A stretch of 30,660 nt of DNA, taken from contig JAQGMD010000485.1 in NCBI GenBank assembly GCA_028292565.1, positions 1 to 30,660 of the forward strand, written 5' to 3'. The DNA is from Burkholderia sp. GTDB lineage: Bacteria; Pseudomonadota; Gammaproteobacteria; Burkholderiales; Burkholderiaceae. Both the position numbers and the translations under genes were made by a program. Positions within the stretch are counted from its first letter, which is position 1, and each line of letters opens with the position of its first letter. Positions 19,262-27,273 of this stretch are shown one piece after another. The notes below the pieces were generated by a model, which worked only from the letters and a program-made list of their open reading frames with translations, made no database searches and was not told where the DNA came from.

Positions 19262-19766
19262 GCAATGCGGCGCGTTTTTCGTTGACTTGCCGGTTTCGGA
19301 TACGGTGGTTAAGGTCGCTCAATTGGTTTGTTGCCTGTAGAAACTGTGCGCATGCTAGCAAAAAACCCCCCGTTTGTCCGCTTTTTCTACGTAAACCGCT
19401 TGATTTCAAACGTTTTTATTCGGATTTGACTTGACCAAAATGGTGCGACGCATTACCGTATCAGTCCCTTCGCAATCACGAAGGATTGTCTTTTCTTGCG
19501 CGGTGCATGATGCCGCTTCCTGATCAGGCGCGCTTTAACAAGCTGTTTGCTCTAACCCACGCCACAAGCGTGAGAAATTTGTATCGGCAGTACAGAAACC
19601 CAGGCTGAACGAGTCGCGTTTAGCGTCATTTTGAACCGCACTTACTAGTGCGCGACGAACTGGCGTCACCGCACAAAAAAGGGAAGCCCGGCCGTGTATA
19701 TCCGATCGATTTCGCAAGGAGAGAGCATCCGTTCAATCTCCCATGGACCTTGAAAGGAATGATGTA
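19262..19766. other. 505-bp intergenic region between the sigma operon and ilvI
   Basis: This gap carries the divergent control regions of the minus-strand sigma operon and the plus-strand ilvI-ilvH-ilvC operon. Visible: two overlapping -35-like boxes TTGACT/TTGACC (19426-19436) without a convincing -10; a palindrome CCTGATCAGG (19519-19528); a hairpin CGCACT-TACT-AGTGCG (19637-19652) not followed by a T run; and an AAGGAG at 19716-19721 that is too far from any start. Two short ORFs with modest Val/Ile/Leu content (19352-19429 and 19440-19523) lack ribosome sites. No attenuator, RNA gene or riboswitch could be supported. Confidence 0.5.
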
Positions 19767-25476: not shown

Positions 25477-25505
25477 TTGCGCTTTTCCACATTTCCGCTT
25501 ATAGT
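25477..25505 (+). promoter_or_regulatory. candidate sigma70 promoter of leuA
   Basis: TTGCGC (25477-25482), 17-nt spacer, TATAGT (25500-25505, 5/6 match to TATAAT). The predicted start of transcription is about 25511-25513, which coincides with the ATG of the leucine-rich leader ORF. Immediately upstream lies the inverted repeat GCAAAA...TTTTGC (25451-25469). Confidence 0.5.
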
Positions 25506-25538
25506 TTTTCGCATGTCCCGCGAAATCCACATTTCCGC
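25486..25538 (+). repeat. 13-bp direct repeat flanking the leuA transcription start
   Basis: TCCACATTTCCGC occurs at 25486-25498 (in the promoter spacer) and again at 25526-25538 (early in the leader ORF), 40 bp apart. The reverse complement of its left half, ATGTGGAA, occurs at 25429-25436 and pairs with TTCCACAT at 25485-25492. The arrangement could be a multi-site operator; no known regulator motif was recognised. Confidence 0.55.
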
Positions 25539-25602
25539 ATCCGCTTCTCTCAGCAGCCTCCTGCCAGGCCTGCTGCTATCGCTATTCCTGCTAGTGCGTT
25601 AA
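25513..25602 (+). CDS. leuL: leucine-rich leader peptide of leuA (29 aa)
   Basis: ATG 25513 to TAA 25600-25602. Nine of 29 residues are Leu, concentrated in residues 13-27, where the core reads SLLPGLLLSLFLLVR. Three of the Leu codons are CTA (residues 22, 24, 27), normally infrequent in GC-rich genomes. There is no Shine-Dalgarno sequence, and the ATG coincides with the predicted transcription start, so translation from a leaderless RNA is likely. The ORF lies 120 nt before leuA, in the position of leader peptides that sense charged tRNA-Leu in attenuation control. Gene, size and position fit such a leader; a chance ORF cannot be excluded, but clustering of Leu just before a leucine-biosynthesis gene makes that improbable. 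Confidence 0.68.
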   Translation: MSREIHISASASLSSLLPGLLLSLFLLVR

Positions 25603-25722
25603 CACGCGCTAAACCCCATACCCCCACAATTCGTGTAGTCTCTCGCTCCTGTTGACGGCAAGGGCAGGCGAAAAACCATTTAAAACACGGCTCGTTCACC
25701 GTATCTTTCTAAGGAGTGCAGC
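25603..25722 (+). promoter_or_regulatory. leuA leader RNA downstream of the leader peptide
   Basis: This 120-nt stretch starts with a C-rich, G-free segment (25609-25632, about half C), the type of sequence Rho prefers. No GC hairpin with a T run is seen. Possible pairings are GCAGGC (25664-25669) with GCCTGC in the leader ORF (25568-25573), ACACG (25602-25606) with CGTGT (25632-25636), and CTCCT (25646-25650) with the leuA ribosome site AAGGAG (25711-25716). Regulation by Rho-dependent termination or by sequestration of the leuA ribosome site is therefore conceivable. Confidence 0.4.
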
Positions 25723-27273
25723 ATGACCGCTAGTGCATCAGAGAAGTTGATCATATTCGACACCACCTTGCGTGACGGTGAGCAGTCCCCGGGCGCCTCG
25801 ATGACCAAGGATGAGAAAATCCGCATCGCCAAGCAGCTGGAGCGCCTGAAGGTTGACGTGATCGAAGCGGGTTTTGCTGCGGCCTCGCCGGGTGATTTCG
25901 AGTCAATCAAGGCCATCTCCGGCATCATCAAGGAATCGATCGTATGCTCGTTGTCGCGTGCCAATGACCGCGACATTTCCCGCGCGGCCGAAGCGCTCGC
26001 GCCCGCTGCACGGAAGCGCATCCATACCTTCATCGCCACGTCGCCGCTGCACATGGAAAAGAAGCTGCGGATGTCGCCGGACCAGGTGTTCGAGCAGGCT
26101 AAGCAAGCAGTGCGTTTCGCCCGCAACTTTACCGACGACGTGGAATTCAGCCCCGAAGACGGCAGCCGGTCGGACATGGATTTCCTGTGCCGCGTGATCG
26201 AGGCGGTGATTCAGGAAGGCGCAACGACCATCAATTTCGCGGATACGGTTGGCTACGGCGTGCCCGAGTTGTACGGCAACATGATCAAGACTTTGCGCGA
26301 GCGTATTCCCAATTCGGACAAGGCTGTCTGGTCAGTCCATTGTCATAACGACCTGGGGATGGCAGTTGCGAACTCGTTGGCCGGTGTGATGATCGGTGGC
26401 GCACGCCAGGTAGAGTGCACCATCAATGGCCTCGGCGAACGTGCGGGCAATACTGCCCTGGAAGAGATCGTGATGGCGGTCCGGACACGCAAGGATCACT
26501 TCAACCTCGACCTTTCGATCGATACCTCGCAAATAGTGGCTGCTTCAAAGCTGGTGTCCCAGATCACCGGCTTTGCGGTGCAGCCGAATAAAGCGGTGGT
26601 TGGCGCCAATGCGTTTGCGCACGCATCCGGCATACACCAGGACGGCGTGTTGAAGGCGCGCGATACCTACGAAATCATGCGCGCGGAAGACGTGGGCTGG
26701 ACCGCGAACAAGATCGTGCTGGGCAAACTGTCCGGTCGCAATGCATTCAAGCAGCGTCTCGAAGAACTCGGCATTGCGCTCGAGTCGGAAACCGAAGTCA
26801 ATGCCGCGTTTGCGCGCTTCAAGGAACTGGCTGACCGCAAGTCCGAGATTTTCGATGAGGACATCATCGCTGTCGTAGCGGACGAACAACATTCGCACGA
26901 CAAGGAATTCTTCCGATTTGTGTCGCTGTCCCAGCGTTCCGAAACCGGCGAGCGCCCGAGCGCCAAAGTGGTATTCACGATGGATGGCCAGGAACTGACC
27001 TGCGAAGCGCAGGGCAACGGCCCGGTCGACGCCACCGTCAATGCGATTGAATCGAAAGCCGCGAGCGGTTCCGAATTGCTGCTGTTCTCGGTTAACGCGA
27101 TCACCACCGGGACGCAATCGCAGGGCGAAGTGACCATGCGCCTGTCGAAAGCCGGCCGCATCGTCAATGGCGTTGGCGCCGATCCGGATATTGTGGTCGC
27201 CTCCGCGAAGGCGTACTTGTCGGCGTTGAACAAGCTGCAGTCGAAAGCGGAGAAGTTGAATCCGCAGCTTTAA
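25723..27273 (+). CDS. leuA: 2-isopropylmalate synthase
   Basis: A 516-aa enzyme for the first committed step of leucine synthesis, condensing acetyl-CoA with 2-ketoisovalerate. The TIM-barrel catalytic domain (about 1-280) starts with [16 protein letters not shown] and holds the metal ligands of [16 protein letters not shown] (His-x-His) and the [15 protein letters not shown] helix. A linker region with [17 protein letters not shown] follows. The C-terminal LeuA regulatory domain (about 375-510), which binds leucine for feedback inhibition, includes [13 protein letters not shown] and [24 protein letters not shown] at 25711-25716 precedes ATG 25723. The product is full length for the type-1 family. 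A strong terminator follows, so leuA is monocistronic. Confidence 0.95.

Follow-up and report, generated by a model that had tools for sequence, protein, structure and literature searches.

The locus analysed here raises the question of how leuA is controlled when a short leucine-rich ORF lies directly before it, and whether translation of that ORF can begin at the very 5′ end of the mRNA. The window, which is the whole stretch of 30,660 nucleotides of Burkholderia sp. DNA that was analysed, carries ilvC, a gene for a CDP-alcohol phosphatidyltransferase and leuA in the same direction, and the leader ORF sits between the latter two genes. Our preferred reading, to which we give a probability of roughly 0.8 as a whole explanation, is that a leaderless Leu leader before leuA serves as a leucine sensor. 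The preliminary description had reported an ORF of 29 codons with nine Leu codons, three of them CTA, at a distance of 120 nt from leuA, and this was confirmed. The leuL-like, putatively leaderless ORF occupies positions 25513–25602 of the forward strand, on which all features described below are located. It starts with the ATG at 25513, ends with the TAA at 25600–25602, and encodes the peptide MSREIHISASASLSSLLPGLLLSLFLLVR. The ATG of leuA follows at 25723; the gene (25723–27273) encodes 2-isopropylmalate synthase with the Pfam domains HMGL-like and LeuA_dimer, and is preceded by a Shine-Dalgarno sequence, AGGAG, that was read from the sequence at 25712–25716.

A promoter can be read immediately upstream of the leader. 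It consists of the −35 hexamer TTGCGC (25477–25482), which has 3 of 6 matches to the consensus, and, after a 17-nt spacer, the −10 hexamer TATAGT (25500–25505), which leaves 7 nt before the leader ATG. Upstream of this ATG in the window there is no piece of AGGAGG of at least 4 nt. The earlier proposal that the ATG lies at the predicted transcription start and has no ribosome-binding site was supported, with the start itself being a predicted one. A simple sigma-70 scan listed no promoter at the leader; the scan requires a −35 element with 4 of 6 matches, and TTGCGC has 3 of 6 in comparison with TTGACA. A direct repeat, TCCACATTTCCGC, was noticed by eye at 25486–25498 and 25526–25538 and was discarded as a candidate element, as it is not conserved in the promoters of L156, L157, L160 and L171; a looser form is present in L009. 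Several near relatives conserve the first leader codons, SREIHISAS (25516–25542), among which a small hairpin, GAAAU/AUUUC, is predicted at 25522–25535. Searches against Rfam at the gathering score gave no match in the window or in 18 related loci, and the only two matches of this type below the threshold were both far under the gathering scores of their families. A search of a plasmid collection gave no match.

The comparison with relatives started from 80 leuA loci of named genera. Further leuA loci were taken from genomes of the order and of the family of G001, the genome that holds the Noviherbaspirillum locus L009, with matches in 169 of 200 genomes in the order search and in 137 of 195 in the family search. 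Thirty loci were drawn from each of these searches, some of them shared, and another 40 were added from the order and 60 from the family; these additional loci came from the higher-scoring part of the lists, so that distant or leuA-less genomes are under-represented. From the resulting 244 loci and the window, 13 sequences that were identical over 200 nt and two that were too short (L048 and L110) were removed, which left 230 regions. When leader ORFs were picked by Leu enrichment alone (binomial p<0.01), one was found in 76 of the 230 regions; the controls gave 2 of 230 (reverse strand) and 44 of 2300 (shuffles). When a −10 element located 6–9 nt before the start was combined with a laxer Leu threshold, the count rose to 126 of 230, with 2 of 230 in the reverse-strand control and 54 of 4600 after shuffling; the 126 leaders were chosen by Leu content and −10 element, and their figures on either are therefore inflated. 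The ORF might be regarded as a chance one adjoining an ordinary promoter, for which nothing but its small size can be said. This explanation was rejected because the leader recurs in relatives and because shuffles reach far lower counts (54 of 4600) than the regions themselves (126 of 230), and its probability is negligible. Judged by these sequence counts, the recurrence of a Leu-rich ORF behind a −10 element before leuA is not due to chance.

When the upstream regions were grouped into single-linkage clusters, a leader in the leaderless position was found in at least one member of 63 of the 107 clusters and in most members of 61. Looking for the same ORF upstream of leuA in related genomes had been suggested in the preliminary description. 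Among the named loci, 47 of 80 have the leader, and one of the 33 others (L048) was merely too short to judge. The genera with leader loci include Undibacterium, Noviherbaspirillum, Burkholderia, Caballeronia, Cupriavidus, Acidovorax, Limnohabitans, Polaromonas and Rubrivivax. Over the whole set, 104 of the 230 regions have no ORF with the required combination of Leu content and −10 element. In the sampled loci, the leader was not found in Collimonas (3 loci), Massilia (3), Janthinobacterium (3), Duganella (2) and Herbaspirillum (1), and it is also missing in Variovorax and other loci and in some loci of Burkholderia, Paraburkholderia and Polaromonas. Absence of the Leu cluster in close relatives had been named as an outcome that would count against the leader; this was not the outcome for the clade overall, but no leader was found in the loci sampled from some relatives. 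In three Paraburkholderia loci (L013, L017 and L022) the TATAGT box is kept without a qualifying Leu-rich ORF, as if the leader were decaying. In a class-wide sample of 28 new leuA loci, the best-scoring from 80 matching genomes among 114, a raw count gives a Leu-rich ORF in the leaderless position in 11 of the 28. Leu leaders of this sample (L245–L272) often have ...LRLLP as their last residues; by eye, a hairpin may surround the stop codon, and the motif CTGGCGAGG is located upstream of leuA in 12 of the 28 loci.

The position of the RNA 5′ end can be judged from the distance between the −10 element and the ATG. In the 76 leaders that were picked without reference to a promoter, TATAAT-like hexamers (at least 5 of 6 matches) end 6 nt upstream of the ATG in 15 leaders, 7 nt in 22, 8 nt in 5, 9 nt in 4 and 10 nt in 2; no other distance between 0 and 29 nt occurs more than once. 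A −10 element with at least 4 of 6 matches is located 5–9 nt before the start in 56 of the 76. For the 126 leaders, in which the −10 element was itself a selection criterion, the hexamer is TATAGT in 58 and TATATT in 27, and a TTG is present at the position given by a 17-nt spacer in 87, with a −35 element of at least 4 of 6 matches in only 26. A leaderless mRNA is expected to have no Shine-Dalgarno sequence before its start, and this is what was found in the window and before 75 of the 76 leaders, a proportion at chance level, as 74 of 76 shuffles likewise have none. The leuA gene is preceded by a Shine-Dalgarno sequence in 72 of the 76 loci, where the choice of the leuA start favoured such a sequence and the contrast is therefore partly built in. 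An alternative in-frame start with a Shine-Dalgarno sequence is available in 6 of the 126 leaders.

The distance of a transcription start from the −10 element is not fixed at 7 nt and can differ by a few bases. The leader could for this reason have a short 5′ UTR, with the start site a few bases upstream of the ATG, and would then lack a Shine-Dalgarno sequence without being strictly leaderless; distances of 8–9 nt, which would suit such an arrangement, occur in 14 of the 126 leaders. Against this, the start codon lies 6 or 7 nt past the −10 element in the other 112, and the base before it is C in 105 of the 126, which fits a pyrimidine-purine start site. We consider a short 5′ UTR unlikely. 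On a consensus reading of the promoter, the leader RNA very likely starts at the ATG.

Two other amino acid biosynthesis genes of the same family were used as controls. A Trp-enriched candidate ORF was found before trpE in 28 of 30 loci, with a −10 element at the leaderless distance in just 2 of these 28. Before ilvB, 28 of 30 regions were without a branched-chain-rich leader by scan. Because of these two controls, the juxtaposition of the −10 element and the ATG is taken as a property of the leuA leader and not as an artefact of the scan. The trpE leader ORFs (L303–L332) are located approximately 170–350 nt upstream of trpE, and nearly all share an end resembling EAWLWRRWQSW. These candidates have no Shine-Dalgarno sequence by scan and are mostly without a −10 element at the leaderless distance, and in several of them a GC-rich hairpin-like stretch and a T-run follow. 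In the window itself, the gap of approximately 480 nt upstream of the ilvB operon (19262–19742) yielded nothing in the scan for leaderless ORFs.

Evidence for translation of the leader comes from the pattern of its changes. In the alignment of the window's clade (24 sequences), 47 of 48 gaps within the ORF are multiples of three, compared with 5 of 97 after the stop codon; these gaps were counted per sequence, so that inherited gaps are counted repeatedly, and 1 of the 24 rows is out of step over the ORF columns. A second group, the Comamonadaceae-type loci, is made up of leaders grouped by their peptide ends. In its alignment 30 of 52 gaps within the ORF are multiples of three and the 22 others are single-column gaps, with a recurrent one at the stop codon, which is inside the ORF boundary as set. 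Across 19 leaders of the window's clade, comparison of equal-length pairs showed conservation of Leu residues in 152 of 218 cases and of the remaining residues in 261 of 556, as would be expected from the earlier prediction that relatives keep the Leu codons and let others drift. The codon CTA makes up 27.4% of the Leu codons of the leaders, compared with 0.5% in leuA of 79 of the same loci (p ~3e-105), and 1.5% of the Leu codons across 15 ORFs of the window. Leu is concentrated towards the end of the leaders, with 671 of 1764 residues in the last 14 codons compared with 210 of 1409 earlier.

The hairpins and the conserved motif after the stop codon, which are described below, would also be in keeping with a conserved RNA or DNA regulatory element in which the Leu reading is incidental. 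Such an element would not account for the frame-preserving gaps, the CTA enrichment and the drift outside the Leu codons, and this explanation is very improbable. Because of the recurrence, the CTA enrichment and the in-frame gaps, it is very probable that the leader ORF is translated, that its translation is leaderless, and that it has been retained to sense leucine. Two features of a leader-peptide attenuator are present in the comparison, namely a short ORF that is rich in the amino acid of the pathway and located between the promoter and the first gene, and selection on its frame (47 of 48 gaps, which is comparative evidence).

Three hairpins are predicted in and after the leader of the window's clade. 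H0 (25551–25575) lies in the leader with the Leu codons as its 3′ arm; its helices have 78.9% and 91.5% of cells paired, and it is also present in the RNAalifold and RNAfold predictions. H1 (25593–25610) has the leader stop codon in its loop and 89.0% of cells paired, and RNAfold gives the stem in the window; one of its pairs is GC in 10 sequences, CG in 5 and unpaired in 8. H2 (25645–25665, GCTC.TGTT / GGCA.GGGC) is located approximately 40 nt past the leader stop and is not followed by a T-run; 92.1% of its cells are paired, and 3 of its 8 pairs have changes on both sides. An unbiased helix scan recovered H2 and part of H1, and did not recover H0. Taken together over 24 clade members, 88.8% of cells in H0, H1 and H2 can pair, and both the cells paired and the covariation score exceed those of 500 of 500 shuffles and of all slid versions; the number of further pair types was matched by 69 of 500 shuffles and that of both-side changes by 13 of 500. 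Predictions made largely on these very sequences were the source of the three hairpins, and such scores can also rise through relatedness alone. Four folded segments of the window were not clearly better than their shuffles. In the deep-branching loci, RNAalifold found almost nothing in a set that aligns poorly after the stop codon, and a stem of 5 pairs where the leader ends shows 95% pairing over 31 loci but no covariation in the scan.

Between H1 and H2 there is a C-rich, G-poor stretch (25613–25639) that contains CCACAATTCG and ends in the conserved CCACAATTCGTGTAGT. In the 60 nt that follow the stop codon, the pattern C(H)CAAYY is present in 23 of 24 clade members compared with 4.0 expected by shuffling, in 13 of 39 deep-branching loci (L104–L155) compared with 4.9, and in 2 of 18 Comamonadaceae-type loci compared with 1.7. 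In the window's clade, the 45 nt after the stop have a C content of 0.39 and a G content of 0.17, compared with 0.29 and 0.26 in the whole upstream regions, and the composition after the stop is similarly C-rich and G-poor in the Comamonadaceae-type and deep-branching groups. A long-range helix was also considered, in which GCCTGC of the Leu codons (25568–25573) can pair with GCAGGC at 25664–25669, overlapping the end of H2. It has 94.9% of cells paired, a value equalled by 86 of 500 shuffles, and is conserved but not covarying; a second register has 93.7% paired, with 22 of 500 shuffles as high. The duplex energies between the Leu codons and the downstream RNA were about the same for a locus's own and for swapped partners, with a method that allows long gapped duplexes and for this reason says little.

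The analysis suggests the following order of events. The promoter at 25477–25505 would drive leuA from an mRNA whose 5′ end lies at, or about a base from, the ATG at 25513. The ribosome would start at this ATG without a Shine-Dalgarno sequence and read the Leu-rich leader peptide. With plentiful leucyl-tRNA it would run through the leader, and when leucyl-tRNA is scarce it would stall on the CTA and CTG codons. The stall would alter events on the RNA past the leader, and expression of leuA would increase.

What the stall acts on seems to depend on the lineage. An intrinsic terminator before leuA is present in 18 of 18 Comamonadaceae-type loci, in 3 of 19 loci of the window's clade and in 11 of 39 deep-branching loci. 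For the Comamonadaceae-type terminator, 27 aligned sequences give a covarying stem that is 96.3% paired with 10 doubly changed cells. A candidate antiterminator, in which a stretch of the leader pairs with the 5′ arm of the terminator, has 7 pairs and 81.0% paired, with a nearly invariant core; this percentage was equalled by 83 of 500 shuffles, and there is little covariation. The output in the Comamonadaceae-type loci is very probably a classical antiterminator/terminator switch, as far as can be read from the alignment. In the window, no intrinsic terminator was found between the leader and leuA. Control of leuA by the leader is therefore proposed from its position and from the relatives. 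Because a terminator was sought and not found, the window's leader, which probably works like an attenuator, is not assigned to the classical terminator-based attenuators. We conclude that the sensor is common to the lineages and that the output differs or is hidden.

For the window, Rho-dependent termination at the C-rich stretch after the stop codon is a guess that we hold at somewhat below even odds. Rho is favoured in the window's clade because this C-rich, G-poor stretch follows the stop directly, but loci that have a terminator are just as C-rich there. The alternatives are translational control or some other factor. In a translational version, passage of the leader ribosome would let the Leu codons pair with GCAGGC, H2 would be blocked, and its GCTCCT arm would cover the Shine-Dalgarno sequence of leuA, which stalling would free. 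The window suits this scheme in that the CGCUCCU arm forms 7 contiguous pairs (one of them G-U) with AGGAGUG, a helix that is present in the predicted fold. Across 19 clade members, however, the best helix has a mean of 12.5 compared with 11.1 in shuffles, several members lack the helix, and imposing a stalled ribosome barely shifts the predicted pairing of the Shine-Dalgarno sequence (from 0.91 to 0.87). Sequestration of the leuA Shine-Dalgarno sequence by the H2 arm found no support as a conserved device, since it fits the window but not the relatives taken together, and translational attenuation seems improbable for the window.

Our comparison thus supports the ORF, its translation, its leaderless position and the surrounding hairpins. 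The precise start position, the way leuA responds to leucine and the means of output are inferred. A wider and more tentative reading, which is possible though doubtful, is that an old leucine sensor with leaderless initiation is common to Betaproteobacteria and presumably also to some of the other Gammaproteobacteria (11 of the 28 class-wide loci), while the output module has been exchanged between lineages. It would be an intrinsic terminator in the Comamonadaceae-type loci and, in the window's clade, a mostly terminator-free output based on a C-rich element with the conserved ACAATTCG motif and on H2, read by Rho or another factor. If this were so, leaderless initiation would tie the control of leuA to the state of the ribosome as well as to leucine. 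If the predicted start is right, the leader would be a natural and widely conserved example of leaderless translation under regulation in Proteobacteria, and one that occurs in environmental genera. Such a system would make it possible to ask directly if leaderless initiation makes a difference to attenuation, and by what route a leader peptide acts on a gene that has no intrinsic terminator. The arrangement also provides an annotation rule for leuA leaders that methods based on the Shine-Dalgarno sequence would miss.

Similarities exist with several known systems. As in the classical enterobacterial leu and trp attenuators, the regulatory codons are located in a leader ORF, and a terminator and a candidate antiterminator are present in the Comamonadaceae-type relatives; in contrast to these attenuators, no terminator was found in the window. 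The enterobacterial leu and trp leaders have a Shine-Dalgarno sequence. The LeuL of Campylobacter jejuni is, in the passages of its report consulted, a leader of 28 aa that precedes leuABCD and has rare Leu codons at the end, and it was found through a search for small ORFs with a ribosome-binding site, so that, unlike the leader described here, it is not leaderless (PMC3847290). In the actinobacterial LEU element, a leader ORF before leuA likewise has a run of Leu codons able to pair with downstream RNA, and according to part of its description these codons pair with the leuA Shine-Dalgarno sequence, with a pseudoknot proposed (PMC1262725); in our analysis, pairing with that sequence was examined for the H2 region only.

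Leaderless leader-peptide control is already known, and in a library of open-licence papers neither a leaderless leader peptide nor a leuA leader was found described for Betaproteobacteria. Term searches in the main texts of start-site papers on Burkholderia cenocepacia (PMC4603805) and Cupriavidus metallidurans (PMC7563307) gave no description of a leuA leader. The preliminary description had called a leader started at the RNA 5′ end an unusual variant for a proteobacterium. This holds insofar as none was found described in Betaproteobacteria, but it has to be qualified by the leaderless leaders of Actinobacteria and of the alphaproteobacterium Sinorhizobium meliloti. In Mycobacterium smegmatis, leaderless Cys leader ORFs are cited in sections of a review (PMC9031893). 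In Streptomyces lividans and, by the same account in the parts consulted, also in other Actinobacteria, leuL before leuA is leaderless, and the resemblance to the present leader extends to the Leu-rich ORF before leuA and to a LeuL1 without a typical Rho-independent terminator (PMC8079986). S. lividans belongs to another phylum, and the peptides differ as judged by eye rather than by a formal comparison. The trpL of S. meliloti (rnTrpL/peTrpL) is similar to the leader described here in that the RNA 5′ end is the leader ATG, according to sections of its report, and in that it comes from a proteobacterium (PMC7298713), while that system is concerned with tryptophan and trpE and belongs to the Alphaproteobacteria.
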